From positions 1 through 64,000 of the forward strand of contig DATDFQ010000032.1 of the NCBI GenBank assembly GCA_036522515.1: a stretch of 64,000 nucleotides of DNA. The letters run 5' to 3'. The stretch is from Bacteroidota bacterium (GTDB lineage Bacteria; Bacteroidota; Ignavibacteria; UBA10030; SZUA-254). A model generated the notes under the pieces. That model did no database searches. It was not told the origin of the DNA and saw only the letters and a program-made list of their open reading frames with translations. A program made the translations under genes and the position numbers. Positions 1 to 51,100 of the stretch are shown here, in pieces; position 1 is the stretch's first letter, and each line of letters starts with the position of its first letter.

Positions 1-665
1 TTCTTCGTAACGACTGCGCGCTCCTGATCGGTAAGCTGCGCGGTTCCGAGATCGACGTACTCATCCAGCGCCTCTCCCTTCAGTTTCAACGCCTCCAGCG
101 CCTTCGCAACCATCATCCGGTCATCGATCCGTTTGGAAAGCTCGGGATGGATGCGGAACAGACCCTTCGCCCTCAGGACGCCGGTCTCGTAGAAGCCGTT
201 TCCAAATAACACTTCCGCCCCCTTCATCTGCATGAATGCGACCTGGGGGTCTGATGCCGCGACGGTTTCGCGGGCATCCATGTTCGCCCCGTGGGTCGTC
301 GTCGCCCGGGGGATTGAGATTTCCTCATTTCTTTCCTTCGCGGGGATCCGCCGGATACGCTCCATCGCGAGTTTCAACAGCAGATCCTCCTTGGAGAGCG
401 TCCGCAAGTCCGAGAGGTCGATGATCGCCATCTCAGGGAGGATCACGGTCGTCTTGCCGTCGACGAGAAGCGAAGCGGAGGACTTTCCGCCGGACTTCAT
501 CGAGTCGTCGGGTTTCAGGATGTCTCCGCGGGAAACGGGCATCCACTTTTCCTCGACGTTATGCCGGACGTAGACTGCGCCCTTCACGGCAACCACCCTG
601 ATATCGGCGCGCACCGACGCAGCGCCGAGTAAACCGAGCAACAGAATCATCATCGTTGTTTTCAT
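1..665 (-). CDS. FecR-like domain secreted protein (partial)
   Basis: The gene starts at the ATG whose complement is 663-665, after a good ribosome site (AAAGGTGA), and runs off the left edge, so the C-terminus is missing. About 221 residues are visible. Residues 1-20 form a signal peptide (MKTTMMILLLGLLGAASVRA). Residues 22-90 resemble a FecR-type beta domain: a VVAVKGAVYV strand, a W-x-P-V-x-x-G-D turn, a gly/ser-rich strand, then an LVDGKTTVILPE strand. The remainder is helical and TPR-like. The likely location is periplasmic or surface. It is probably co-transcribed with the barrel gene upstream on the same strand, although a repeat cluster separates them. Exact function is unknown. Confidence 0.75.
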   Translation of the reverse strand, partial: MKTTMMILLLGLLGAASVRADIRVVAVKGAVYVRHNVEEKWMPVSRGDILKPDDSMKSGGKSSASLLVDGKTTVILPEMAIIDLSDLRTLSKEDLLLKLAMERIRRIPAKERNEEISIPRATTTHGANMDARETVAASDPQVAFMQMKGAEVLFGNGFYETGVLRAKGLFRIHPELSKRIDDRMMVAKALEALKLKGEALDEYVDLGTAQLTDQERAVVTK

Positions 666-795: not shown

Positions 796-2829
796 CTACT
801 CCACTACACCCACGTCCACGACACGCACCCAGCCGCGGACCATTCCGAGATTTACTTCGACATCGTTGAAGTACTCGCGAGCGCCCATCTTCCATGCGTC
901 GTCGAATCCCTTCGTGATCGCGGTCGTCTCGATCGGAAGCCACACCGACTCTTCGCGCCGGTCGTTCGGCCTGATCACGTAGATCTTCGGATTGTCGCTC
1001 AGTAACGATGCTTCCCCCGGCTTGATACCCGTATCGAACATCAGGTAGATGTGCGAATCGGCGGGGTGATCCGGCGGCACGACGTCGACAAATGCCGTCG
1101 ACATCCCGATACTTGCAAGCAGAGCGGCATAGCAGACGCTCATGTCGTCGCAGTCGCCTCCCCGGATCCGGAGAGTCTCGGAGGGATACTGGACAAAATC
1201 TTCGCTCTTCTTGGGATCGTTCACGTAGAGAAGCTGCGTGGCAAATTCGTTGAACAAAATCCTCGCGCGCGCGACATTCGAAAGGACGCCGGGCACCGTA
1301 TCGAGAAGCCCCTTGTAGTGGTTCAAATACGACCGTGTGAACCTGAGGACTTCGGAATCCGCCGGCGTCACAAAATACCTCAGGACCGAGACGTCGCCGT
1401 TCCAGTCGTTCCTGGCGTGAATGAGCACGCGGCTCTGATACCGGTCGTCATACCTCCCGTCGCCGGTCACCGCGGTGACGTTTACCTCGCCATTTCGTAT
1501 GCTTGGAGAGCGCGCGGAACGGATCGAATCGTTAAAAACCGCATAGAGCGGAATGCCCGCCGTGTCGCCGGCCGGAACGGTGGCCGGCTTCGTCTCGGTC
1601 GGCGCATCCATCAACTTGTCGACAAAGAAACTGAGTTTCGCGTCGATTGCTTCGCCTGTCACGTTCCGGACGATCGCTCTGCCGACGGGCCGGTAGGCAT
1701 AGACCGTCTGGAGAACGGGAAAGAAGTCGCCGCTCATGTCGACGCGATCGATCTGAACAGGGTTGGGATGGACGCCGCCGAGGGTGATGCGGGCGGTCAA
1801 TGAAAGCCGGTCCCCCGTGAACGGATTGTATTCGAGGCTTCCGATGTCGGACTGTTGAAATGAACTGAGCGCGGCGGAACCCTTCCGGTTCTCCTCCGAA
1901 ACGAATTTGAGATAGCTCGCATCGAGCCTGACGGGCCCGTAGGAGCCGCCGGCACCGACGGAGAGTGCGTCTGCGGAGAGCGAGGCCGAACCATCGATGT
2001 ACAATCCACCACGGAGTAGAACATGAAACGGTCCGGTCCACTCTCCGCCTACGCGAAACTGTTTTCTTGTGTCGCCATCCAGACTCACGAGGGCGCCATC
2101 CGCCACCTCGTACCCGAGGCCCATGCGAACGTATCGCGGGAGCGTCAACTCGTACTGCTGCGCATCCCCGGTGAGCCGGGATTCCACAATTTGAAAGAGG
2201 TTTTTCGCCACGAGCCCGAGCCTGACTCCGGCCGGGTGGCTCCAGAGGACTCCCACATCGGCCAGAAAGGTATTCCCCGAATAGGTCACGGGTGTCGATT
2301 GGATGACAGAGTTGGAATCCACGGAGAACCGGGTATCGCTCACCTGGTTCTCGAACCTGTGGAGGCTCAGGCCGATCGAGATCTCCCGCGGCCCGCGGAA
2401 CGCGATTCCGAACGCATACGGCTCGCTGTAGCTGATCTTCTTGTCGAACCTGTTCACGACCGATCTGCTGGAATCCTCGAGCGAGAAGACCGAGGGAATG
2501 GTAAACTCGAGCGAGATCCCGGGGGAAATACGGAGCCCTGCGGCGTAATCTTCGAGGAACCGCTTGCCGGCGCCGCCGAGCTGCGCCGTCCAGGAGGGAT
2601 CGCTCAATGAAGGGGAGAAGAAGTTTCCCGCGTCGATTTCCCAGTCCGAGATTCCGGCAAGTCCCGCAGGATTCCAGTCAAGCGCGCTCACCCCGTCGGA
2701 AAGGGCGGTGTACCCTCCCATGCCGATCGCCCGGGCCGAGCTCAGGTGTTGCGAATATGAGTTTGAACGGGTCATCATCATCATGCACAACACTGCCAAT
2801 CCTATGCGGGTAGGAGGCACAAACTTCAT
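796..2829 (-). CDS. PorV-like outer-membrane barrel fused to transglutaminase-like domain
   Basis: This is a 677-residue secreted protein with a signal peptide ending near SYSQ (residues 24-27). Residues 28-75 carry the PorV/UPF0164 signature: ARAIGMGGYTAL followed by GVSALDWNPAGLAG. Residues up to about 355 have the alternating pattern of an outer-membrane barrel. The C-terminal third (about 480-640) looks transglutaminase/cysteine-peptidase-like: GGDCDD with Cys560, His593 in SHIYLMF, and Glu634 in WLPIETT where Asp is more usual. It sits 10 bases downstream of a lipoprotein gene, so the two are probably an operon. PorV/PorQ family members act in or beside type IX secretion, but the appended domain is unusual. 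A role in processing surface proteins is inference only. Confidence 0.75.
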   Translation of the reverse strand: MKFVPPTRIGLAVLCMMMMTRSNSYSQHLSSARAIGMGGYTALSDGVSALDWNPAGLAGISDWEIDAGNFFSPSLSDPSWTAQLGGAGKRFLEDYAAGLRISPGISLEFTIPSVFSLEDSSRSVVNRFDKKISYSEPYAFGIAFRGPREISIGLSLHRFENQVSDTRFSVDSNSVIQSTPVTYSGNTFLADVGVLWSHPAGVRLGLVAKNLFQIVESRLTGDAQQYELTLPRYVRMGLGYEVADGALVSLDGDTRKQFRVGGEWTGPFHVLLRGGLYIDGSASLSADALSVGAGGSYGPVRLDASYLKFVSEENRKGSAALSSFQQSDIGSLEYNPFTGDRLSLTARITLGGVHPNPVQIDRVDMSGDFFPVLQTVYAYRPVGRAIVRNVTGEAIDAKLSFFVDKLMDAPTETKPATVPAGDTAGIPLYAVFNDSIRSARSPSIRNGEVNVTAVTGDGRYDDRYQSRVLIHARNDWNGDVSVLRYFVTPADSEVLRFTRSYLNHYKGLLDTVPGVLSNVARARILFNEFATQLLYVNDPKKSEDFVQYPSETLRIRGGDCDDMSVCYAALLASIGMSTAFVDVVPPDHPADSHIYLMFDTGIKPGEASLLSDNPKIYVIRPNDRREESVWLPIETTAITKGFDDAWKMGAREYFNDVEVNLGMVRGWVRVVDVGVVE

Positions 2830-2838
2830 AGACGGCGG

Positions 2839-3741
2839 TCAGGGACCAAGAGAAAGAAGCAGGTTATGCGTCGAAGACGCCGTCACCCTGATCGAATCGG
2901 GATATCCGTTGACGCTCACGGTCTTGCCGCTCTCCGATGTGAACGTAAAGAGCGCGGCCGGCTGTCCGCGCAGAATCTGGAGGAGCGTCGACGGGATGAC
3001 GATTCCGCCGAGGTTCGAATTGACCCGAAGCCGGATCAGCGGCCTCGCGCGCAAGCCGGACTGCACCGAGCTGATGAGCACATTGACGGATGTGCCGCCG
3101 CCGGTCCAGCGGACGCGAAGATTGTGCGAGAGCGAGACTATTTCATCGGGCAGCGGTGAATCGACATGGAGAGCCGCCGGAGACTCCACGTCCACGGTGA
3201 ACGGAAGGATCACGCCAAGTCCCGTTGCGCTCCACCGGTATGCGTGGTTGCCGACATACTGGAAGCCGCGGCCTCCGATGCCGTCGCGGCTCACAAGAAA
3301 ATATTGTACCCCGAGCAGCGTGTCGAGCAAGAGCCGGGGAATCTGCAGACGCTTCTCGCGGGGAATGAGCGCAATGTCATCGATGCCGACGATCCCGGCG
3401 TTGAGCGTCTTGTAGCCAAGCGTCTGCGAGTCGATGATCACGGGGGCGGACCGGTCGAAAAAGATCGCCCGTGCAAGGGAACCTTCGTGATGCTCTGTCC
3501 TGCTATCGAACGACGACCCTGCGACGATCAACTGGCCCAGGCTCGTGCTTCCGACGGGCGGGAAGAGGCGCGTCGAGTCGATATCCTCAGTCCCGAACGC
3601 CCCGTCGGGCGAAATAGAAATTGGCGAAACCACCACGGGATTCGGAATCGCATCGTCGATCAGATTCACCGGGCCCTGCTTCTGGCAACCCGCGGCGATC
3701 AGAACGAGAATCAAGATGCTATGGTAGAGCGTCCATTTCAT
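2839..3741 (-). CDS. Lipoprotein of unknown function
   Basis: The start is the ATG complementary to 3739-3741, preceded by AAAAGGAAACGGA, because it places the signal peptide at the N-terminus. An upstream in-frame ATG at 3813 would add 24 polar residues. The 300-residue product has the lipobox LIAAGC and so is lipid-anchored. Residues 200-300 look like beta-sandwich repeats (LRVRWTGGGTSVNVLI, then a serine/threonine-rich strand). No catalytic motif is visible. It lies directly upstream of the barrel-transglutaminase gene and may be its partner, though that rests on position alone. Confidence 0.75.
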   Translation of the reverse strand: MKWTLYHSILILVLIAAGCQKQGPVNLIDDAIPNPVVVSPISISPDGAFGTEDIDSTRLFPPVGSTSLGQLIVAGSSFDSRTEHHEGSLARAIFFDRSAPVIIDSQTLGYKTLNAGIVGIDDIALIPREKRLQIPRLLLDTLLGVQYFLVSRDGIGGRGFQYVGNHAYRWSATGLGVILPFTVDVESPAALHVDSPLPDEIVSLSHNLRVRWTGGGTSVNVLISSVQSGLRARPLIRLRVNSNLGGIVIPSTLLQILRGQPAALFTFTSESGKTVSVNGYPDSIRVTASSTHNLLLSLGP

Positions 3742-3858: not shown

Positions 3859-4896
3859 TTACCGCACCACGATATATGGTGTACCCCAGAACTCGTTCGT
3901 AAACGGAGCGTCGGCGACATAGATCGAGCTCCACGACATGACATCGACAACCGCGTTGAAGCGAGCCGCGAGGATGCCCAGCGGCAGAATGGACGGCAGC
4001 CGGCTGATGAACACGCGTTGATAGACCCTGGTATAATTGCCGGGCCCGCCTGTCGTCGAAACCAGATGCATCAGCGTCCGGCGGCGTTCGGCGCCGTCAC
4101 CCGCGATGCCGTACCGGAGGTGCGCGATTTCCGCCGAATCATCCGAGCTGTTGAGGGTGACGCGGACTCTTACGGAGTCTCCCACCCTGAAATGCGGCAC
4201 CGAGCCGCGGAAGAGCCCGAGGCGGAACCACGTGTTCAGCGGATCCGTATAGGTCGTGTCGAAGTGTCCGATGTGCTCGATCTCAAGCGTGGAGAGCGAG
4301 AAGTTCTTGAGACTATCGGGCCTCGTGCGGCCGAGCACCATCGTGATGGCGACCGGGACCCAGTTCCTCAACGGATTGTCCGTGCGCGCAACGCGGATGA
4401 ATCGCACCTTCCGCGTCACAACCTCGGTGAACGGCTTCTTGATGATGCTGTCGACGATGACCGTGTCCAGCGTCCTGGTTCCCACCCCGACCCAGAATTC
4501 GCCGGGAAGCACCTTCGTGATCGTCACGAGCGCCGACGAGTCGCCGGGAGCGATGACAACATCGTAATGGCGCGTGACCTGATTCCAGAAGATGCGGCGG
4601 CCCCAGCGGACAGGCGTAATGGTATCCCCGAAGGTTATTCCGAGATGGCCCAGATCGCCGATGTCGAGCTTCGCAAATCCGTCATACTCAGGAGCGCGCA
4701 TCCCGTTGTCGTCGATTGTCGTTTCATCCGATGAGGAGAATCCGGCAACCGAATCGGTGGTCGCGACTTCTTCCTGCAGGGCCTGCTGATCCGTGACGGT
4801 CACCGGGGGATTGATGACATTATCCTTGGTGCACCCGGTCAGGTAGAACAAAAGACCCGCCGTGACACCCAAAACTGCCAGCTGCAAATTCTTCAT
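3859..4896 (-). CDS. Lipoprotein of unknown function
   Basis: The start is the ATG complementary to 4894-4896, with a strong AAAGGAGAGG ribosome site. A longer reading to 4977 adds a basic segment that would mask the signal peptide. The 345-residue product begins MKNLQLAVLGVTAGL with lipobox YLTGC. An acidic, Ser/Thr-rich linker follows (about 30-55), then a beta-rich body without recognisable catalytic residues. It is monocistronic: a terminator follows at 3796-3838. No family is recognised. It is probably anchored to an envelope membrane facing the periplasm or surface. Confidence 0.75.
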   Translation of the reverse strand: MKNLQLAVLGVTAGLLFYLTGCTKDNVINPPVTVTDQQALQEEVATTDSVAGFSSSDETTIDDNGMRAPEYDGFAKLDIGDLGHLGITFGDTITPVRWGRRIFWNQVTRHYDVVIAPGDSSALVTITKVLPGEFWVGVGTRTLDTVIVDSIIKKPFTEVVTRKVRFIRVARTDNPLRNWVPVAITMVLGRTRPDSLKNFSLSTLEIEHIGHFDTTYTDPLNTWFRLGLFRGSVPHFRVGDSVRVRVTLNSSDDSAEIAHLRYGIAGDGAERRRTLMHLVSTTGGPGNYTRVYQRVFISRLPSILPLGILAARFNAVVDVMSWSSIYVADAPFTNEFWGTPYIVVR

Positions 4897-5259
4897 GACT
4901 ACCTCTCCTTTATAGAGTGACTTGCTGTGCGGTCTCAATTTAATTTTGCCCCGCCGCTCTCTCCCACACGCCCGCACGTGATTTTGAGATAGAAGAGCAG
5001 CGGGACAAATTCATCCACCATAGTCTAACAAACAGGCGTGAAAATTGAAACAGGGTGCCTCTCGCCTGTTGATGCGCTTCACATCCCTCGATTGAAGCGC
5101 ATCCACATGGTGAGATAGGCATCAACCATCGTGCCAGGACGGTTCTTTACACGGAAGCTGTGAAATTCGAGGGGAAATGGGGGATCGGGTTGAAAAAGCG
5201 GGGAAATCGTGTGCCGGGTAGTGCGGGAATTCCGGAGAGTTACGCGGGATCGAACCCGA
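4897..5259. other. Intergenic region with one hairpin
   Basis: These 363 bases hold no convincing gene. The clear structure is a perfect 11-bp inverted repeat, GATGCGCTTCA (5071-5081) and TGAAGCGCATC (5093-5103), with an 11-base loop. It lacks a T-run on either side, so it is not a standard terminator. It could be an operator or an RNA hairpin between the sensor-regulator gene and the lipoprotein gene. Confidence 0.6.
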
Positions 5260-7923
5260 TCACGCGGTCGGCGGATCCTTTTTCCATTCCCCGCGGCTAT
5301 ACGCCCCGATCAACTCGTCGAGGTAGGGATGGTAGCGTTGCGGGAGATTCTTGTATTTGGGCCGGGCCGCGGCGAGAACCTGTTCGGCAGAGCCGGATGG
5401 GTTGACGGCTTCGACGGCATTACCGAGATACTCGAGCAATTTCTTCTCAACCCTCCGGAGAACCTCCCGGTCGGAGGAGCCGGCGATTGCCACGACCGCG
5501 TCGCCGGTGTCCCACCGCTTCTCGACAAACGTCTTGAAGCAATACCCGCGCAGATATTCGGCAACCGTTCCGCGGTTGAATCCGCCCAGCTCTTCGGCTG
5601 TTTCGGAGATCGCATTCCGGGAGAAACCTTTTTCGCGCACTGAGCCGATGATCTGTTTTTCGATGTCCAGGACTGCCGTCGACGACGATGCGAGCTCCTC
5701 CGGAAGATCGATGATCCGGATCATATCGCGCCCTTCCGCTCTTGCCAGCAGGACAGCCCGCTTGAGGACGCTTTGAAGCTCGCGGACGTTTCCTTTCCAT
5801 GGATACTTCAGAAATACCTCCATCACGATCGTGCTGCACTTCGTACCGGGGGATTCCCGCTCGATGAATCGCCCGACGAGAAGCGGGAGGTCCGCCTGGC
5901 GGTCTCTGAGCGGCGGGAGATTTACGGAAAAGACATTGAGGCGGTAGTAGAGATCCTCTCTGAACTTCTTCTGCTGCACCGCGTCGCGCAGGTCGCGGTT
6001 CGTCGCGGCGATCACGCGGACATTCACCTTCATCGTTTCCGTCCCTCCGACCCTGTCGAGCGTGCCGTCCTGCAACACGCGGAGGAGTTTCACCTGAAAC
6101 GCCTCGCTCGTCTCTCCGATTTCATCGAGAAAAATCGTCCCCCCGTCCGCCAGCTCGAATCTCCCGGCCCTCTCGCGCACTGCGCCAGTGAAGGCGCCGC
6201 GTTCGTGTCCAAAGAGTTCGCTTTCGAGGAGCGTCTCGGTGAGCGCCCCGCAATTGACGGCGACAAACGGCCCGGCTCCCCTGGAGGAGTGGGCGTGTAT
6301 CGCCCGCGCCACCAGTTCCTTCCCGGTGCCGCTTTCGCCCATAACGAGGACATTCGCGTCGTTATTCGAGATCTTCTTTATGAAAGCCACAATTTCCTGC
6401 ATCGGTCCGGAGGCGCGATAGAGGATCCCGTTGAAGTCCTCCGCTTCCCCTCCACTCTGCGGCGACTCCTTGTGCGGTTGAAGATCGTCGGCCTGCGTGC
6501 GCAACCGGGCGATTTCGGATTGGTACGCCGCGATCTCTTCCTGGAGGGCCGCACCGCGCGGCTCGCCGTTCGGCTGCCGGAGGGCGCCGAGTTCCTCCTC
6601 GAGCGATTTCAGCCGCTTCTCTTTGTCGTGCAGGAGCCGGTGAATCGATTCCTTCTCCTCCCTGAGCGACGTGACCTGTCCCTGGACCAGCTGGTGCCTG
6701 AAGAGCACGAGCCCTGCCGTAACTACCAGCGCCGCGAAGAGAGAGGGAACAACCGGTAGAATGATCGAAGAGGACGAGAAGGTCCAGCAGGAGGCGATCA
6801 GGAGCACAAGCGCCGAGGCGATGATCGCCAGAATGCCCGCGAGCTGGCGTCTCGATTCCATGAACAGGATGCAGGCGCATCCCAAAGAGAACGCCAGGAG
6901 GTAACCGGCGGTTTCCGATATCCTCCGAAGAAACGAATCGTGGAGGGCATCGTGAATGATCGTCGCGTGGAGGCCGATCGACGGAAACTGGGAGGAGAAT
7001 GGAGTCGAGAGGAACGGACTTCTCCCGCCGGCGATAATGCCGAGGAGGACTATCTTTCCCCTGATCTGCGCGATGACGGGGGGAGTTGTGCCGCCCGATT
7101 GGCGCACGTCGTACGCTTTCAGAAACTCGACCGTGGAAATGAGGTTGAGCGAACCGGTCCCTCCGGTGAAATTAGGAGTGATGGAACCGTCATCGGAATA
7201 GTGAATCCTCACGCGGCGACCCTCTGCGCCGATTTCGGCGTCTCCGTCGCCGATCCTTACATCCGACCTGGAAGCTCCGAGCCCGATTCGGAGAACCTCG
7301 AACGCGAAGGAGGGAAGGCGGCCTTGACTCGTACTCACGAAGAGGGGCAGCTTTGAGGTTTCGAGCATGGTGGTGTGCCCGAAGCTCGCCGAGCTTTTAA
7401 GTAATTCTGGAAACGGAAGCTCAAGCCCCCTGCCGGAGGGAAAGGGTTCCTCCCGGCCGGGAGGATACGCGATGCTGGATGGAATCGCGCTTATCCCGCT
7501 CGCTCCGTGGCTCCCGGTGTCGGGGGCGTTCAGGGACCGGAAATAACCCCCGAGTACGACGTTGCCTGATTTCCGGACCACCGCCGAAAGGATCTCATCA
7601 TACTCAGGGTGCTCCGGATCGGGCTCGGTAAAGGCGACGTCCACACCGACGGCCTTCGCGCCCAGGTCATGGAGCACGTCGAGGATCAGCGCATAGTAGC
7701 TTCGTTTGAGGGGGATCCCGCCGAGCGAAGCGATGTCGTCGCCGGAAAGGTAGAGGATGACGATCGAGGAATCGATTTTTGATTCGCCGCGGAGGTGATA
7801 CTTCGTCGCGGTGAACGATTCTTCCAGCGCGTCGAAGGGGCCTGAGAGAACGCGCGAGAGGAGAAGCGCAAGGACGATGAGGCCGATCCCGAGGTAGAAC
7901 CGTTTCGATTTCCCCTGTTCCAT
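5260..7923 (-). CDS. CHASE2 sensor fused to sigma-54-dependent transcriptional activator
   Basis: This 887-residue membrane regulator starts with a transmembrane helix at 11-27. Residues 30-325 match a CHASE2 extracytoplasmic sensor (IVILYLSGDDIASLGG, AKAVGVDVAF, GKIVLLG). Transmembrane helices follow at 339-355, 362-381 and 386-408, then a coiled coil at 410-480. The AAA+ sigma-54 interaction domain has Walker A GESGTGKE (529-536), the sigma-54 contact loop GAFTGA (576-581), Walker B GGTIFLDEI (594-602) and WKGNVREL. The C-terminus (about 745-887) is helical and holds a plausible helix-turn-helix (AISETAEELGGFNRGTVAEYL), not an obvious Fis domain. There is no receiver or kinase domain, so sensing and transcription activation appear to be in one chain. 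Target genes are not evident here. Confidence 0.9.
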   Translation of the reverse strand: MEQGKSKRFYLGIGLIVLALLLSRVLSGPFDALEESFTATKYHLRGESKIDSSIVILYLSGDDIASLGGIPLKRSYYALILDVLHDLGAKAVGVDVAFTEPDPEHPEYDEILSAVVRKSGNVVLGGYFRSLNAPDTGSHGASGISAIPSSIAYPPGREEPFPSGRGLELPFPELLKSSASFGHTTMLETSKLPLFVSTSQGRLPSFAFEVLRIGLGASRSDVRIGDGDAEIGAEGRRVRIHYSDDGSITPNFTGGTGSLNLISTVEFLKAYDVRQSGGTTPPVIAQIRGKIVLLGIIAGGRSPFLSTPFSSQFPSIGLHATIIHDALHDSFLRRISETAGYLLAFSLGCACILFMESRRQLAGILAIIASALVLLIASCWTFSSSSIILPVVPSLFAALVVTAGLVLFRHQLVQGQVTSLREEKESIHRLLHDKEKRLKSLEEELGALRQPNGEPRGAALQEEIAAYQSEIARLRTQADDLQPHKESPQSGGEAEDFNGILYRASGPMQEIVAFIKKISNNDANVLVMGESGTGKELVARAIHAHSSRGAGPFVAVNCGALTETLLESELFGHERGAFTGAVRERAGRFELADGGTIFLDEIGETSEAFQVKLLRVLQDGTLDRVGGTETMKVNVRVIAATNRDLRDAVQQKKFREDLYYRLNVFSVNLPPLRDRQADLPLLVGRFIERESPGTKCSTIVMEVFLKYPWKGNVRELQSVLKRAVLLARAEGRDMIRIIDLPEELASSSTAVLDIEKQIIGSVREKGFSRNAISETAEELGGFNRGTVAEYLRGYCFKTFVEKRWDTGDAVVAIAGSSDREVLRRVEKKLLEYLGNAVEAVNPSGSAEQVLAAARPKYKNLPQRYHPYLDELIGAYSRGEWKKDPPTA

Positions 7924-7932
7924 CCGTGCGGC

Positions 7933-9150
7933 CTACCGGTTGGTCAATCCACGGGGCTGGAGCCACTGCAGGGGATCCTGCTTCTCGCGATCCTTCCAGA
8001 TTTCAAAATGAAGCTGAGGACCGGAGAGGGCCTCGCCGCTTTTCCCGATCTGATCCCCTTCTTTCACGTCGTCTCCTTCGTTCACGGAGATCTCCAGAAG
8101 GTGGGCGTAGACGGTCCGGTACCCGCCCTGGTGGTTCACGATGACGAGGTTGCCGAAGGACGGGAGCCACCAGATCGTGGAGACTTCGCCCGCGGCGACC
8201 GCATCCACGACGGTGCCGGAGGAAACCCCGATGTCGATGCCGGTATTCTGTGTCACCGTGTGAAGGGTGCGATTTTCCTGGACCCCGAACCGCCCGATGA
8301 TCTTTCCCTGCGACACCGGCCACGAGAGCTTGCCCCTCAAGAGATCGAACCCCGTTCCGGGCCGCGAAACGCTCCCGCCCGGACGCGTACTCTGATCGGG
8401 CGGTTTTCGCGCTGGTCCGGCCTTCTCGCGGTCGATCAGGCCCGCGACGAGTTGCTCCAGTTTCTTTGCGTCTTCGATCTTGCGATTGATTTCGCGTGTA
8501 AAGTTTCGCTTGTCTTTTCGGATCGTCGCAAGGAGCGCTTTCCGCGATTGGACGCGGCCGGCGAGCTTTTTCTCTTCGCGCGCCTTTTCCGCGATCAGCT
8601 GGCGGCGGTTCGCAAGCTGCCGTTCCAGTTTCGTGTTCTGCGCCTGAAGGTCGGCCCGTTGATCGGAAATGCTGTCGAGATCCTGCCGGCGCTGTTCGGA
8701 AAACCGCTTCAGATACTCCGAGCGGATAAGCATCTGGTTCAACGAGCGCGACGTGAGGAGCAATTCGAGATCGTACGTGCGGCCGGACTTGTAGGCGGTC
8801 GTGACGTACCGGGCATACTCCTGCTTGAGGAAACCGACCCGGTCGCTCAAAGTGCCGATGAGAGCGCGGTCGCGGTCGATATCGTCGGAGAGGGATTTCT
8901 CTTCGTCCTTCAGCCTGCCGATCAGCTTTCGGACGAGCGAGGCCTGGTGATCGTAGCTGTCGAGGAGTTCGAGCGTCGCGTGTTCCTTCCGCTCCTTCCC
9001 CTTGATCTTCTGTTCGAACTGATCGATCTCTTTTCTCAGCTTTTCGAGATCGGAGCGTTTCTGCTTCAGCTCGCTCCGTTGGGCGCCGGAAGAAGCCGCA
9101 AACAATCCGGAGATCAGGAGCAGTGCGAGGAAGGTTGCGCGGGGGGTCAT
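7933..9150 (-). CDS. M23 (LytM) peptidase, EnvC-like murein hydrolase or activator
   Basis: The start is the ATG complementary to 9148-9150, which shares one base with the stop of the DUF4292 gene (TGATG). The 405-residue product has a signal peptide ending SSGAQ. A long coiled coil spans about residues 20-255 (SELKQKRSDLEKLRKEI onward). A C-terminal LytM domain is marked by NTGIDIGVSSGTVVDAVAAG and, near the end, QLHFEIWKD. The second zinc ligand region reads YRTVYAHLLEI. In the first motif the usual His of HxGxDI is Asn (NTGIDI), as in degenerate EnvC-type activators, so it may activate amidases rather than cut peptidoglycan. It acts in the periplasm at division or remodelling sites. Confidence 0.9.
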   Translation of the reverse strand: MTPRATFLALLLISGLFAASSGAQRSELKQKRSDLEKLRKEIDQFEQKIKGKERKEHATLELLDSYDHQASLVRKLIGRLKDEEKSLSDDIDRDRALIGTLSDRVGFLKQEYARYVTTAYKSGRTYDLELLLTSRSLNQMLIRSEYLKRFSEQRRQDLDSISDQRADLQAQNTKLERQLANRRQLIAEKAREEKKLAGRVQSRKALLATIRKDKRNFTREINRKIEDAKKLEQLVAGLIDREKAGPARKPPDQSTRPGGSVSRPGTGFDLLRGKLSWPVSQGKIIGRFGVQENRTLHTVTQNTGIDIGVSSGTVVDAVAAGEVSTIWWLPSFGNLVIVNHQGGYRTVYAHLLEISVNEGDDVKEGDQIGKSGEALSGPQLHFEIWKDREKQDPLQWLQPRGLTNR

Positions 9151-9920
9151 CAGCGCCGGATGATCTCTGCGCGATCGGGAATGGTGAGCGAGCATTCGAC
9201 CGGCTTGTTGACTTCCAGGCCGGAGTACGCGATGGTGATGCTCCTCTTTTCCTGCGGGAAAATCACGCGCAACAGTTTCGGGACCGCAACCGGGGGAGAG
9301 TCGTCGATCCTGGATGCCGTGGCCGTAACGGCCGGGCTGCCCGCGCTGTCTGCGACGCGGTAACTGGTCACAACGAAATCCTCCCCGTCGATCTGGTATT
9401 CCTTGCTGTCGGTCCGTTCGGCGTACCGGAGCACGTAGCGGTCGTCCTCCACCGTAAACCGTGCGAGCGAATCGCCGGGCGATGCCGCGGGAAACTCTCC
9501 CGTGAAGACGTTCAGTATTTCATCGAACTCCATCTTCAGCTTGAGCATCGATTGAAGCGTCTTGCCGTCGGGTTTACCGATGATGGCCTTGTTCTCCATC
9601 TGGTTGAAAAAAACGAAGCGGTCGCGGCATAACTGCAACGTTGCCACATGGATCCCGAACGGCCCTTTGAACTCCACCAGGAGCGAGTCCGGCTTCTTGA
9701 GCGACGCGTCGAAGTAGCCCGAGTTCGACCCCTCGGGGACCTCCACGGTGATCGTGCCGTTTCCCCGGAGTGTCCTCACCTGCTCGTTCCGCTCCTGAAC
9801 CCGGCGGATGACCTCGGCGGCCGGGAACGGGCGCTCTCTGATCGATTTCGCGGCTGGCGCGCACCCGGCGAACGCACACGCAAGGAGCAATACGCCGGTC
9901 CCGCAGGGGGTGCATCTCAC
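9150..9920 (-). CDS. DUF4292 lipoprotein (LolA/LolB-like fold)
   Basis: This 256-residue lipoprotein starts at a GTG (complement of 9918-9920) that overlaps the stop of the TPR gene by four bases. Lipobox CAFAGC lies near residues 15-20. The body (about 35-250) reads as a single beta-sheet scaffold: GNGTITVEV, YFDASLKKPDSLLVEFKGPFGIHVATL, DRFVFFNQMENKAIIG. This matches DUF4292, a family resembling the outer-membrane lipoprotein sorting proteins LolA/LolB. The order TPR lipoprotein - DUF4292 - M23 peptidase is, from general knowledge, conserved in Bacteroidota and suggests a joint envelope-building role. Substrate is unknown. Confidence 0.85.
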   Translation of the reverse strand: MRCTPCGTGVLLLACAFAGCAPAAKSIRERPFPAAEVIRRVQERNEQVRTLRGNGTITVEVPEGSNSGYFDASLKKPDSLLVEFKGPFGIHVATLQLCRDRFVFFNQMENKAIIGKPDGKTLQSMLKLKMEFDEILNVFTGEFPAASPGDSLARFTVEDDRYVLRYAERTDSKEYQIDGEDFVVTSYRVADSAGSPAVTATASRIDDSPPVAVPKLLRVIFPQEKRSITIAYSGLEVNKPVECSLTIPDRAEIIRR

Positions 9921-11659
9921 AGACTTCCCCGTTGGATCTTCTCTTTCAACTCCGTATTTGTCGCGTCGAGCTGCAGGGCTTTCTGCCAGTACTCCATCGC
10001 CTTCTCTTTCTTCGACTGCTTGTAGTAGATGTCGCCGAGGTGTTCGTTGATGACCGGGCTGTTGCTCCCCAGCTCGATCGCCTTTTTGATGTACCTCTCT
10101 GCTTCATCGTACTGCTGGAGCCGGAAGTAGACCCAGCCGTAGGTGTCGAGGTAGGACTGGTTCGCCGGCTGCTGCTCGACTGCCTCCTTCGCCATGCGCA
10201 ACGATCTCTGGAGCTGCAGCCCGCGCTCGGAAAGGCTGTAGGCGTAATTATTGAGAAGCAGGTGGTTGTGGGGATCCATCCGGAGCCCCCGTTCGTACAT
10301 GCTGTCGGAATCCTCCGGCCGTTTCAACTCGTCGTAGGTAAGCGCAAGCGCGCTCACCGCGTCGACGCTTTTGTCGTTGAGCTGGATCGCCTTTTCGAGC
10401 GAGGCGGCGGCGTCGGCAAGGGCGTGTTTTCGCTGGTAGGAGATCCCGAGAAGGAAATGGATGCGGAATTCCTCGGGCACGACCTTCCGCGCTTCGGTGA
10501 GCACCTGAATCGCGTCGTCGAATCGTCCCTTGTCGTAGTAGATCGAGGCAATTCCGACCCAGCCGTCCGCGTTCCAGCTCGCGAGCTCCTTCACTTTTTG
10601 AAAATTCAGCATCGCGCCGGAATCGTCCTTGGTGATGTTGTCGATGGCCCCGAGGAACCAGTAGGGGCGCCAGTCGTCCGGATACTTTTTCTTGATGCGT
10701 TGAAAGAGGTTGATCGCGTAGGGGGCGACCGCGGAATCTTTCTGAATAAAATTAAGGAAGACCTGGCCGAACTTGAGCTGGTCATCCAACGAGAGAGAGT
10801 CCCTCCGGAGGACGGCCTCAAATTGTTCCGCGGCGGCGTCATAGTCCTGCCGTGTCAGGTAGGCGTGCGCGATCGAGGCCCGAACATCGAGGTTTTCGGG
10901 ATGAAGTTCTATCAGCTCGTTGTAAATGCGAAGCGCCGTCGAAACGCTGTCGATCTTGAGGTAGGCGTCACCGAGGGCCTTTTTCACTTCAAAGTTTCCC
11001 GGATCGAGGGAGAGCATCCCTTTCAGTTGCTCAGTCGCCTCCCGGAGTTTTCCCATGCCGCTGTAGATCTGCGCCATCTGGAAATACGCGTCGGACTCGG
11101 GGCCGAACCGGTTGATGACCTCCTGGTAGACTTTCAGGGCCCGATCGGGTTTCTGCACTTGAAGAAGCCTGCCCAGGCTCAACCAGCCCTCCAGGTACAT
11201 CGAGTCGATCTTGATCACCGCGTCGAATTCCCTGATCGCGCCGTCGAGATCGAGCGCGTTTACATAAACCTCCGCGAGCGTTTCGTGGTAGGTCCTGTTG
11301 TCGGGCTCCAGACGGACCGCCTCAAGTCCCATCTGAATGGCCCGGGTATGGTTATCGAGAATCGAATAGTCTTTTGCGATCGCGTGGTAAATGGCGGGAT
11401 CCTGCCTGGTCTGGAGGGCTTCCTGGTATTGCAGGATGGCTTCGGCGTATTTCCCCGTCTGGTCGAGCAGAGATCCTTCGATGAAACGGCGGAGCGCGAG
11501 ATCATCGTCCGGGAGTTGTTTCAGCGGAAAGCTGCCCGAAGGTTTGGAGGATTGCGCCGTGGTCCCGGATCCTCCGCAGCCGGCGAAGATGAGCCCCGAC
11601 AACAAGATCGGCGCAGTCCAATATGTCATCCGCCTCCAGGATCGCCTGAAAGTTTTCAT
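9917..11659 (-). CDS. TPR-repeat lipoprotein
   Basis: This 580-residue protein starts with MKTFRRSWRRMTYW and a signal peptide ending in lipobox LIFAGC, then a Gly/Ser linker. From about residue 45 to the end it is built of tandem tetratricopeptide repeats of about 34 residues, many with the AxxxYxxAL/P spacing (for example DGWVGIASIYYDKGRFDDAI and NEHLGDIYYKQSKKEKAMEY). It is first in the overlapping three-gene operon TPR - DUF4292 - M23. It probably serves as a periplasmic or outer-membrane scaffold, as TPR domains bind protein partners. It has no enzymatic motif. Confidence 0.9.
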   Translation of the reverse strand: MKTFRRSWRRMTYWTAPILLSGLIFAGCGGSGTTAQSSKPSGSFPLKQLPDDDLALRRFIEGSLLDQTGKYAEAILQYQEALQTRQDPAIYHAIAKDYSILDNHTRAIQMGLEAVRLEPDNRTYHETLAEVYVNALDLDGAIREFDAVIKIDSMYLEGWLSLGRLLQVQKPDRALKVYQEVINRFGPESDAYFQMAQIYSGMGKLREATEQLKGMLSLDPGNFEVKKALGDAYLKIDSVSTALRIYNELIELHPENLDVRASIAHAYLTRQDYDAAAEQFEAVLRRDSLSLDDQLKFGQVFLNFIQKDSAVAPYAINLFQRIKKKYPDDWRPYWFLGAIDNITKDDSGAMLNFQKVKELASWNADGWVGIASIYYDKGRFDDAIQVLTEARKVVPEEFRIHFLLGISYQRKHALADAAASLEKAIQLNDKSVDAVSALALTYDELKRPEDSDSMYERGLRMDPHNHLLLNNYAYSLSERGLQLQRSLRMAKEAVEQQPANQSYLDTYGWVYFRLQQYDEAERYIKKAIELGSNSPVINEHLGDIYYKQSKKEKAMEYWQKALQLDATNTELKEKIQRGSL

Positions 11660-33592: not shown

Positions 33593-35014
33593 CTACTTGA
33601 TCAGCAGGATTCCCTTTGCGGCAGATTGGAGGGCAGATGACCCGCGGTTCGTCGGAAGATAGGTCGCCCTGACAAAATAAAGTCCGGTTCCAACCTGGCT
33701 ATTTCGATTGTTAGCGCCGTCCCACATTATTTGGTGAGGCCCCGCGGTTTCTTTGCTTTGTAGGATGGTTCGCACCTCCCTCCCGATGGGGTCATAAATT
33801 CTCAGGGTGATCGTTCCTTCGCCGGGGATTTCGTAGCGGAGGCTGGTGGATGAATTGAACGGATTGGGGTAGTTCTGGTAAAGCGTAAATGACCGGATCC
33901 GATCCAGAGGTTCTCTTACGGAGGTTGTTCCAAGATCGAGACGATAGACTCCGCGAGGACCTCCTCCAAAGCGGGTACCGTTAACGCCCGCATAGAGGTA
34001 TCTCTCGTCGGGCGATAGAGCCAATGCGAACACCTGTGCCGAGTCGATTCCGATGTCCTGCCACGATTGTCCACCATCCGAGCTCGTGAACACCCCGTGG
34101 CCGAATACGGTGTCAGGCCGGAAATCGAAAGACCAGCTGATACCTGCAAAGAGAGCGTCCGGTATCGATCTTAGCCGCCTAGTGATGCACCAGACATTTG
34201 CGAAGTTCCCCGGGATCCCGGCTGAGATGTTGATCCATGACGTGCCTCGATCGGAAGACTTAAAGATCCCCTTCGAAGCTGCGACCGTACGAGATCCAGC
34301 CATGTAAAGAGTCGATGACGGGTCCCCGAACTCGAAATGGTAACCTCCCCCTCCATAGAGAATATCCGGTAGCGTATTCTTCCAAGTCAACCCATCGTTT
34401 GTCGAAATGTATAGCCGCCCGTCGCTATACGCGCTCACGTAAATCCTTTCAGGGTTTTCAGGATCAATCCCAATCGCGCCGATATTCCTCCCTTGAGGCC
34501 CAGTCGAATCAGCGATGGATTCCCAAAGCGCGCCGCCATTTGTGGTCCTGGACAATCCGCCAACTACCAGAGCGGCAATCATGGAATCTGGATGCGTTGG
34601 ATTGATGGCGAGCTTCGTAATCCCTGATCCCCACCAGCTCGCCGGGATGCCGCTATCCGCGCGGAACCATGTCGCGCCCGCGTCTGTGCTTTTTAGCAGG
34701 CCGGCAGAGCCATAAGAGGCGGCATAGAGCGCCGCGAAGAGAATGTTGGAACTGTCGGGACGCATGACCAATTCCTGTACACAAACGCTGTCTCGCATCA
34801 ACATCCAGTCCACGCCCGCATTGGTGCTCTTGAAGATTCTGCCCTGGGCGGCGCTGATGTCGCTTCCTACGTAAATATTGCTTCCGTCTCTCGGATCCAC
34901 GAGTACCGACGTAATGGCCTCGTAAGGCAGCCCCAAGTGCACCCATTGGGCGGATAGGTTCAATGGCACACTAAACGAAAGACAAGTTATTGCAAGTAAG
35001 ATGCGGTGCGGCAT
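33593..35014 (-). CDS. Secreted BNR/sortilin-type repeat protein with T9SS sorting domain
   Basis: This 473-residue protein has signal peptide MPHRILLAITCLSFSVPLNLSAQ. Residues 25-380 contain BNR/sortilin-like beta-propeller repeats with recurring S-T-N-G/D-x-G-x-x-W motifs (FKSTNAGVDWM, LYISTNDGLTWKN, IFKSSDRGTSWIN, FTSSDGGQSWQD). The C-terminus is a type IX sorting domain, FTLYQNYPNPFNSSTSLRYE, ending in ILLIK. It is probably exported and possibly cell-surface attached. BNR repeats occur in glycosidases and adhesins, and no catalytic residues can be assigned here. Confidence 0.9.
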   Translation of the reverse strand: MPHRILLAITCLSFSVPLNLSAQWVHLGLPYEAITSVLVDPRDGSNIYVGSDISAAQGRIFKSTNAGVDWMLMRDSVCVQELVMRPDSSNILFAALYAASYGSAGLLKSTDAGATWFRADSGIPASWWGSGITKLAINPTHPDSMIAALVVGGLSRTTNGGALWESIADSTGPQGRNIGAIGIDPENPERIYVSAYSDGRLYISTNDGLTWKNTLPDILYGGGGYHFEFGDPSSTLYMAGSRTVAASKGIFKSSDRGTSWINISAGIPGNFANVWCITRRLRSIPDALFAGISWSFDFRPDTVFGHGVFTSSDGGQSWQDIGIDSAQVFALALSPDERYLYAGVNGTRFGGGPRGVYRLDLGTTSVREPLDRIRSFTLYQNYPNPFNSSTSLRYEIPGEGTITLRIYDPIGREVRTILQSKETAGPHQIMWDGANNRNSQVGTGLYFVRATYLPTNRGSSALQSAAKGILLIK

Positions 35015-48108: not shown

Positions 48109-51100
48109 TTACCGGATCAGGACAAGCTTCTGGACTTTGGTGAAGGTCCTCGCCGGATCTGCGAGGCTGACAGCCTGCAGACGGCAGAAGTAGACCCCGG
48201 TCGCGACGTTGGTTGCGTTCCAGGTTGCCGATTTGAATCCTGCAGGTTCCTCGCCGTGGGCGAGAGTCACGACCTCTTCTCCCAGCGCGTTGAATATTCT
48301 CAAATCGACCCTGCTGTCGACGGGCAACTGATAGGGAACGACCGTCTGCGGGTTGAACGGGTTCGGGTGGTTCGGGTCGAGTGCAAATGTCTTCGGGATT
48401 CGCGACTCTCCGGAAATTTTCAACATCAGGGTATCAGCCGGCGAGTTCACAACAGTATGTCCCGACTGGCCCAGATGAATCTTCTGCCCCGAGATGTTCA
48501 GCACTGCAAGCACGTCCCCGGAGTTCACGTCCCAACGGACCGTGATGGGATATTCCGCGGAGAGAATTCGGATCGGGAGAGTCCGCGCCTCTCTATCCCC
48601 GATAATCTCGCACTCGCGATTCGTCGCGTACCGTACGTCGAAGGCTCCGTCGGGAGGGTTGGGGGGGAGTTCAAAAATCCGTTGATCCGCCGGGAAACCG
48701 CTCTTGTGGCCGAAGTAAAGCGAGCGTGATCTTCCCGCCGCGTCGGTGATCGTGATGCTGGAGGCCCCGGCCAGCTGATCGGCTTGAGCCGGCTTCGGCA
48801 GAGCGCCCTCCGGTTGTCTGGTGAGAACCAGCTTACAATTGGCGCCCACCTTCACCCAGTACCCATGACCCGGAAGAATGCTATCCGGTTTGAAATAACC
48901 CTCCGCCGTATATCCGAACACCCGCGATGAGATCATCCCGTCCGGTATCGAGGAAAGCGTGACGGTGGGGACGCCGTACGAGATCGCACCGATCAGGTTC
49001 CATCCCTGGTAGGCCTGGATCGTGTCGGTCGTGATCGGCTGGCCGGTGAATATGAACATGGTGTCGCCGAGGTATTTCCAGTAGCCTTCTCCGGGGTTCA
49101 GCGTGTCCTTTATGAGATAGGTCCCGCGGAACCCGAACAGAACAGGCATGACGTAGCGGCAATAGGCATCGACGGGAACCGAAATGAGCTGCCACCGCGT
49201 GCCGAGCGTTGCGGAAACATTAATCTCGCTTCCGGGACCTCCCCCGACGCCGCTTACATGGACGGTCTCGGGAGTTGCGATTCCGTCGATGGTGAAAATA
49301 ATATTGCCGTGTTTCTCTCCCTCGGTAAGGGGCGAGAACGTGACCGCGACATTGAGGCTCTCCGACGCCGTGATGAACGCGCTCGATCCTCCGGGAAGCA
49401 CGAAATCGGAATCGTCGGAGACGATCGACTGGACGTGCACGTCGCCCAGGAACCGGAGGTTCTGGATGCTGATTGTCTTGGTCTGCCGGCAACCGACATG
49501 GATGGTATCATAGACGAGATCCGTCTTGTCGACGAGGGTGCCGGGTATGGCAAAGCCGGGTTCCAGGTCGTAGTCCATGACGTTCGATGCGTTGTCGGTG
49601 ATTCTCACGCGAGCGGAGTAGTAGCCGACGCTGAGCGTCTCCGGCAGCGCGGCGAGGTAGGTCGAATCATGCGTAGACAGACTGAGCGGTATCCAGACGG
49701 GATTGCTCGACCTCCGGTACCAGACGCCGACGGAGTCGAGTCCCTGATCCGCCTTCGGAACCACCGCCAGCTGGTTCACCGGGAGGGAGTCGGGCAACTC
49801 GCCGTTCCGCAAGAACTGTAGCTTCTTGAATCTCGGGAGGATCGTGCCCTGATTGTTCGAATTTCCTTTCATCCTCGCCGCGGCGATCGCCTGCCTTGCG
49901 CCGACGTTGAACTGGTTGAAGAATACGTTGAACTCGTACGGACCGCCCGGCACCGTGAGCAGGGTGTCGAGATGGTACCGGGGCATGTTTTGTATGACCC
50001 CCGAATCGAGCGGGACCCCGTTCGTGGAGAGAGAATAGGTGAACGGGCCCGCGGTCCGGTCGCCGAGCGCATTGATAAAATAGCTGTCCGTCGCCACCTG
50101 AACGTCGAATTGCGTCCCCAGGTTGATGACCTTGCCCCCCCACATCGGCGCGGTGATACCGAGGGCATCCTGGAACTTGTTTCGATTGGAGACAAATTGC
50201 GAAGAACCGGAATAATACCCGGTCGTACTCCATGTGAACTTCATCGTGTCGGGCTGGCTGATGGAGCTGTATCCGGTGCGATGCAGAAGATTGTTGATGA
50301 TGTCGAGCGTGTTTCTGGTCAGCCAGTGGGTCGCGTAGGGGAAGTTCTCCTCGCGGGGAGTGGGCAGATAATACGCAGCCAGGTTGAAAGGCGGCGAGAG
50401 AGTCCCGACCGTCGTCCCCAGGCCGAACGAAGGCGAGGAGAAGATAGAGCTCAGATAGAGCTTGTTCGTCGCCGATGGGACCTTGAACCTGTAGTCGACC
50501 CGTTTAAAATCGGAAGGATTGTTTTGAACCGTCAGATCGGTGCTGACGCCGTTACTGACCACATACGGGAATTCATAGATGTAATTCTGCCCGTTGAAAA
50601 ATTCCGGGATCGCAGAAAGCTCATAAATGTAGTTTGTACTAAGGTTGGAGATGTATCGCCGTGTGTGGTTCTGGGGTCCGAACAGCGAGACACCGAACCT
50701 GGAGCGCCTGCTGACGATCGACTCGAGCTCGGTCCGCTTTCTGGTGATTTCATTCCCGTTGACATCCAGCATCCGGAGAGTCAGGAGGTGCGTGGCGTCC
50801 GTTGAGTGGATGCTCACCGTCGTAAAGCCGCCGACGTAGACCCCCTCGGTGATCACCATCTGCGAATCGACGTAAAAGTAAGTCGCAACATCGTAGGTAT
50901 CCACCGGCACAAGGAGGCTTAGCCCGGTACCGATAAGGTTCGAGAAGGCCACGCTGAAAAACGCCGTGTCTCTGTTGTTGTGGATGATCACGAGAGTGGG
51001 CGGCACGTCGAAGGAGAGATTGAAGATCGGGCTCTTGACGAACGCGCAGGGAACCGTGAGATGTTCCGATGTCAGCGTCGATTGTACGATGACCTTGTTG

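Follow-up and report, generated by a model that had tools for sequence, protein, structure and literature searches.

An outer-membrane barrel fused to a LapG-like transglutaminase-fold domain in a recurrent CHASE2-sigma54 operon: a candidate protease of envelope signalling in Ignavibacteria

The window analysed here, a stretch of 64,000 nucleotides of contig DATDFQ010000032.1 from an Ignavibacteria genome (assembly GCA_036522515.1), carries near its start a gene whose product joins an outer-membrane barrel and a transglutaminase-like domain in one chain. What such a domain would act upon at the outer membrane is the question raised by this locus, and the original prediction, made from the DNA letters, had suggested the cargo of type IX secretion. 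The reading preferred here, tentatively and with a little less than an even chance, is that the fusion protein is a LapG-like protease, anchored in the outer membrane and working in the periplasm as part of a CHASE2/FecR-type envelope-signalling system, and that it probably processes its partner, the product of the adjoining gene. The fold, the conserved Cys-His-Glu with its flanking acids, the operon and the enrichment of a sigma54 -24-like element are computational results, whereas catalysis, the protease nature, the substrate and the direction of the signal are what we infer for this protein. The pairing of PorV with a transglutaminase domain was not found in the open-access literature searched, where an operon with the five genes discussed below is likewise not described, and this operon and its recurrence are what is new here.

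The fused chain predicted from the letters corresponds to a real open reading frame and lies on the minus strand, which had been left unstated. It is a single copy in its 3.5-Mb genome, and homologues that span the junction were found in roughly half of the 60 relatives compared at order level. A search of genome contigs with the single protein as query gave no matches; a profile built from the alignment was needed, which recovered 80 loci with the fusion gene, mostly Ignavibacteria, Ignavibacteriales, Melioribacter, Kryptonium and similar, the rest labelled only Bacteroidetes; by these relatives the genome falls in the Ignavibacteriota branch. As homologues span the junction both in these loci and in about half of the relatives, the fusion is not a product of chance. 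The whole chain of 677 residues was modelled by AlphaFold from a 68-sequence alignment with a mean pLDDT of 89.9 and a pTM of 0.61. The features of the locus are collected in Table 1.

Table 1. Features of the fusion gene and its operon, in window coordinates.
Feature	Position	Strand	Basis or remark
Barrel-transglutaminase-like fusion gene	796..2829	minus	ORF, 677 aa; homologues; AlphaFold model
Predicted signal peptide, residues 1-26	2752..2829	minus	helix 8-18, low pLDDT in model
FadL/PorV-type 14-strand outer-membrane barrel, residues ~27-353	1771..2751	minus	VIA and profile matches
Ig-like beta-sandwich linker domain, residues ~356-471	1417..1764	minus	VIA
Transglutaminase-like (LapG-related) domain, residues 474-677	799..1410	minus	AlphaFold, Foldseek, VIA, HMM
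Cys560, predicted nucleophile in G-D-C-D-D	1150..1152	minus	conserved 67/68
His593, predicted triad	1051..1053	minus	conserved 68/68
Glu634, predicted third triad residue, in W-x-P-x-E-x-T	928..930	minus	conserved 67/68
FecR/LapA-retention-like partner	3..665	minus	cut by contig start; 221 of about 230 aa visible
Lipoprotein B	2839..3741	minus	invariant lipobox Cys
Lipoprotein A, first gene after sigma54-like promoter	3859..4896	minus	ATG start 4896 after AAGGAGAGGT
Sigma54-type -24/-12-like element TGGCACGATGGTTG	5123..5136	minus	upstream of lipoprotein A, start 4896
CHASE2 sensor-sigma54 activator, 887 aa	5260..7923	minus	PF05226 1.5e-31, PF00158 8.9e-71

The chain opens with a predicted signal peptide, directly followed by a glutamine (Gln27) that is invariant in 68 of 68 relatives, as in the Q-rule of Bacteroidetes, a rule stated not to hold for the whole FCB group (PMC5837995). 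The N-terminal outer-membrane barrel that had been proposed is recovered, with residues 25-355 aligning with FadL, TodX and PorV chains at VIA Z 24-27, gaps in Z of less than 1 being counted as ties. Against PorV of the T9SS translocon (8gl6_F) the Z score is 26.0, with an rmsd of 4.9 over 285 residues; other matches are PorV 6h3i_F and chains of Bacteroidota BAM complexes (9hiv_F, Z 24.5; 9hjm_F; 9n2d_B), and profile matches in the PDB are 9hiv_F (3.1e-5) and PorV 6h3i_F (6e-4). The PorV_fam HMM scores the fusion protein at 44.9 bits, under its cut-off of 90; 13 barrels of the genome lie above that cut-off. Since PorV, FadL/TodX and BamG are about tied in Z and the PorV_fam cut-off is missed, the description as PorV-like stands for the fold but not for the identity, and the barrel is assigned to the FadL superfamily rather than to an established PorV. 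These barrels share 14 strands with an N-terminal hatch, but the chains of PorV, FadL/TodX and BamG stop at the barrel, whereas the fusion protein continues with an Ig-like domain (VIA Z about 11 against Ig-like parts of GH2 enzymes and HAP2) and then the enzyme domain.

Chains of the FadL type have their C-terminus in the periplasm, whereas it is on the outside that PorV encounters finished cargo. The BamG structure has its C-tail in contact with the periplasmic BamD (PMC12611786), so that the segment after the last barrel strand should be periplasmic, and by analogy with FadL-family structures the enzyme domain should face the periplasm. This placement bears directly on the suggestion that type IX cargo is modified or trimmed by the enzyme at the outer membrane. 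The superposition on the translocon's PorV is in keeping with it, as are 142 matches to the T9SS tail (CTD) in the genome, but the enzyme would be on the other side of the membrane from finished cargo, FadL/TodX and BamG-type barrels fit about as well as PorV, and T9SS genes are absent from the conserved operon members. Beyond the presence of a T9SS, nothing found backs the original suggestion about cargo; the predicted periplasmic domain and the conserved CHASE2-sigma54, lipoprotein and FecR-like neighbours speak against it, and a role on type IX cargo is regarded as very unlikely. Type IX tails are also present in the window itself, on a large subtilase (48109-52869) and a sortilin/BNR-type protein (33593-35014), both on the minus strand.

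When modelled alone, residues 474-677 gave a pLDDT of 93.3 and a pTM of 0.90. The segment GGDCDD...SHIYLMF...WLPIETT, from which a transglutaminase-like domain had been proposed, adopts that fold according to AlphaFold, Foldseek and VIA, and comparison of the model with transglutaminase-like folds reveals a papain-like core. The top Foldseek match is LapG of P. fluorescens (4u65_E, E 4.4e-4), 4fgo also being matched, while VIA gives Z 8-10 overall and 8.1 against LapG (rmsd 3.9 over 131 residues). Structure matches belong mostly to the transglutaminase-like superfamily, comprising LapG, PNGase, TG2/TG3, NAT, XPC/Rad4 and vasohibin. By sequence, the nearest solved structures are LapG proteases: a profile search of the PDB returned 4u65_E (2e-4) and 4fgo_A (0.0088), and the single protein gave only a weak LapG match (0.18). 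Transglut_core (PF01841) is matched by all 65 relatives at E<=0.1 (best 8.4e-8), with the window protein at 15.3-18.0 bits against a cut-off of 23. NCBIfam CystProtLapG matches 23 of the 65 (best 3.3e-4), with the window protein at 12.6 bits against a cut-off of 320, and Peptidase_C93 is matched in one of the 65 relatives (E 0.037).

The transglutaminase superfamily also includes amidases, acyltransferases and inactive members, which brings in two further readings. One is a cross-linking enzyme or amidase of the periplasm, with peptidoglycan or the link between lipoprotein and peptidoglycan as its target; it would agree with fold matches that include pseudomurein endoisopeptidases and transglutaminases, and with an M23 peptidase gene upstream; yet sequence matches favour LapG over both of these groups and the M23 gene adjoins in a minority of loci (14), making such an enzyme distinctly unlikely. 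Loss of catalysis, with the domain kept for binding a partner peptide, has precedents among the VIA matches in non-catalytic members such as XPC/Rad4, but is judged improbable, as the Cys, His and Glu are kept in relatives down to about 24% identity.

The three residues had been numbered correctly in the original prediction and are nearly invariant (Table 1). In the model, Cys560 opens a helix, His593 opens a strand and Glu634 lies just after strand 627-633, positions which are, as modelled, those of a transglutaminase-type triad. A Glu at the third position, where Asp had been noted as usual, is found also in the same domain on other scaffolds. The superfamily triad is given as "usually Cys-His-Asp/Glu" in a paper which also cites an active arylamine N-acetyltransferase with Cys-His-Glu (PMC4866520), and the exchange of Asp for Glu is therefore no argument against activity; the conserved Glu634 is compatible with it. 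The acids flanking Cys560 are conserved as well, D559 in 68 of 68 relatives and D561 in 66 of 68. They correspond to calcium-site acids of the LapG type, D316 and E318 of DvhG, where replacement of D316, C317 or E318 abolishes activity (PMC13090378), and from this correspondence calcium dependence is predicted: the enzyme is possibly calcium-dependent. At one locus (L035, 8948-11521) GDCDD reads ANCSGS, the calcium-site acids being gone and the Cys retained.

When the ORFs of 81 loci were clustered, four families were found at fixed positions beside the barrel-transglutaminase gene. The gene order in Ignavibacteriota starts with the CHASE2-sigma54 activator and continues with lipoproteins A and B, the barrel-transglutaminase and a FecR/LapA-retention-like protein, the partner. 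In loci with room for the gene concerned, the partner is present in 71/73, lipoprotein B in 61/70, lipoprotein A in 56/64 and the activator in 42/57, a CHASE2 gene beside the operon not being found in the other 15; of the 54 loci with room for the whole set, 33 have all five genes. The gap between the enzyme and partner genes has a median of 12 bases. A Pfam search found no family for either lipoprotein, and a PDB profile search with lipoprotein A gave no convincing match. Upstream of the CHASE2 gene and on the same strand, the window encodes an M23 peptidase together with DUF4292 and TPR proteins (7933-11659); genes similar to these are each found ahead of the operon at 14 related loci.

The first gene of the operon has the AAA+ sigma54 domain and GAFTGA motif of a sigma54 activator, in a genome with one rpoN (sigma54) gene and 13 strong sigma54-activator matches, and CHASE2 with Sigma54_activat was found in seven of seven operon activators tested. 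In 35 of 57 loci TGGCAC[GA] is found ahead of lipoprotein A, compared with 0-8 loci for the other four operon genes and one for the opposite-strand control. At TGGCA[CT][GA] sites, the -12 position reads T, T and G in 76, 94 and 71%, respectively, and most sites lack the C that ends the classical -12 GC. CHASE2 is a widespread sensor domain whose signals are described as unknown, and a FecR-CHASE2 operon has been linked to biofilm formation in Burkholderia (PMC5192318). The likeness to that BiofilmReg operon lies in a CHASE2 membrane sensor adjoining a periplasmic FecR-type gene, but its output is a histidine kinase with a response regulator, whereas the fusion-gene operon has a sigma54 activator, and a protease or barrel is not reported in it (PMC5192318).

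After its signal peptide the partner has a beta domain, a stretch of strong conservation (90-108) read as a helix, a short variable linker, an island motif, a second variable linker and a TPR-like end. The island motif, T122-x-[VIL]-[HY]125-G126 (residues 122-126), has its T122, [HY]125 and G126 in 63, 71 and 72 of 74 sequences. The NCBIfam retention_LapA HMM matches 15 of 24 partner members (best 3.4e-6), with the window copy reaching 19.3 bits (cut-off 50). It hits just two proteins in this genome, the partner and one true FecR protein (PF04773, 48.5 bits), and thus cannot tell the two kinds apart; the partner is therefore labelled FecR/retention-like. A retention_LapA match as proof of a LapG substrate was downgraded for the same reason. 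Pfam FecR (PF04773) did not match the partner; a partner profile matched the true FecR protein of contig C8 (E 6.5e-4, probability 28%), and a PDB profile search with the partner gave no convincing match. The layout described for LapG substrates, namely a retention domain, a targeting helix, a cleavage site and an unstructured segment, is resembled by the partner, which is proposed as substrate on that ground; this is the weakest link of the proposal. A literal LapG cleavage site was rejected, a TAAG-like site being found in one of 24 partners (one AAAG).

A rival reading is release of the Lap type: the anchored enzyme would cut a surface-displayed protein, either a lipoprotein or one with a periplasmic retention-like domain, and so let it leave the cell, while the small partner would serve in docking or inhibition. 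In its favour, no solved structure lies nearer by sequence than LapG, and the partner's beta domain, helix 90-108, island motif and variable linker follow the LapG-substrate layout. Against this, a LapD-type c-di-GMP receptor, a giant adhesin or a T1SS gene was not recognised among the conserved operon neighbours, the C-terminal part of the partner is TPR-like and not made of adhesin repeats, and TAAG-like sites are all but lacking, so that release of this type is considered unlikely.

LapG/BTLCP enzymes (4u65, 4fgo, DvhG) are among the closest known systems. Shared are the transglutaminase-like fold, G-D-C-[ED]-D with its calcium-site acids, periplasmic export and an adjoining gene with a retention/FecR-like beta domain. 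The differences are a Cys-His-Asp triad in LapG but Glu in third place in the fusion protein (67/68), the barrel and Ig-like fusion, which LapG/BTLCP lack, the missed cut-off of the curated LapG model, and a CHASE2 sensor in the place of LapD or DvhD. As proposed, the FadL/PorV-type barrel and Ig-like linker would hold a cysteine enzyme on the periplasmic side of the outer membrane, and the inner-membrane CHASE2-sigma54 activator would turn on the sigma54 promoter before lipoprotein A, lipoprotein B, barrel-enzyme and partner. The enzyme would most likely process or grip the small secreted FecR/LapA-retention-like partner which, whole or cut, would inform CHASE2 about the condition of the outer membrane. 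To our knowledge, few routes from outer-membrane state to sigma54 promoters have been described in Bacteroidota, and the operon suggests a so far undescribed protease-based signalling across the envelope. It offers a testable chain from partner cleavage through CHASE2 response to operon induction.

The same Cys-His-Glu domain occurs elsewhere in the phylum on other scaffolds: another barrel, a CsgG-like N-terminus with TPR, and an NHL propeller with TPR. These enzymes adjoin CHASE2 proteins whose output part is a sigma54 activator or a cyclase, and a FecR-like gene is often present too. In L139, L141 and L142 the domain follows a divergent N-terminal half, taken to be another barrel in the proteins of L139-L143, and a CHASE2/sigma54-activator-like gene and a partner homologue adjoin; in the activator-like gene of L139 Pfam finds the sigma54 domain, not CHASE2. 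A CHASE2 gene was not recognised near L140 and L143, which are of the same type. Propeller-TPR proteins of 1513-1674 aa carry the domain towards their end in L144-L147, where a FecR-like gene and a CHASE2-cyclase come next, and in L031, L032 and L035 it is found in proteins of about 830 aa with a CHASE2-cyclase next. Because the link between enzyme and CHASE2 survives a changed anchor and a changed output, a signalling role is favoured over type IX secretion.

A broader claim, doubtful as it stands, is that a LapG-like Cys-His-Glu protease, carried by an outer-membrane barrel, would cut a secreted FecR/retention-like partner at T-x-[VIL]-[HY]-G and that CHASE2 sensors with exchangeable output, sigma54 activator or nucleotide cyclase, would read the product, the whole forming a single family of modules that uses several scaffolds in the phylum Bacteroidota. 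A G-T motif similar to the island motif is a common ending of FecR domains. In partners of propeller-type enzymes G-I-R-R stands in place of the island motif; such a scaffold-dependent linker motif is no proof of a cleavage site, given that common ending, and the island motif may mark where a FecR-like fold ends instead of where the partner is cut. If the broader claim is true, a protease-gated module would be the first class of input for CHASE2, and proteolysis of the LapG type would reach beyond adhesin release.

The window genome has only two CHASE2 genes. The second (L166, 4407-9887, contig C8) encodes a CHASE2-cyclase, in a run with the true FecR protein and an 818-aa protein that is beta-rich, perhaps a barrel, and without a Pfam match; this CHASE2-FecR unit is without the transglutaminase-like domain. 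At L146, a second protein of 492 aa (3923-5398), with a weak match to the same domain (6.7e-7), directly adjoins the CHASE2-cyclase.
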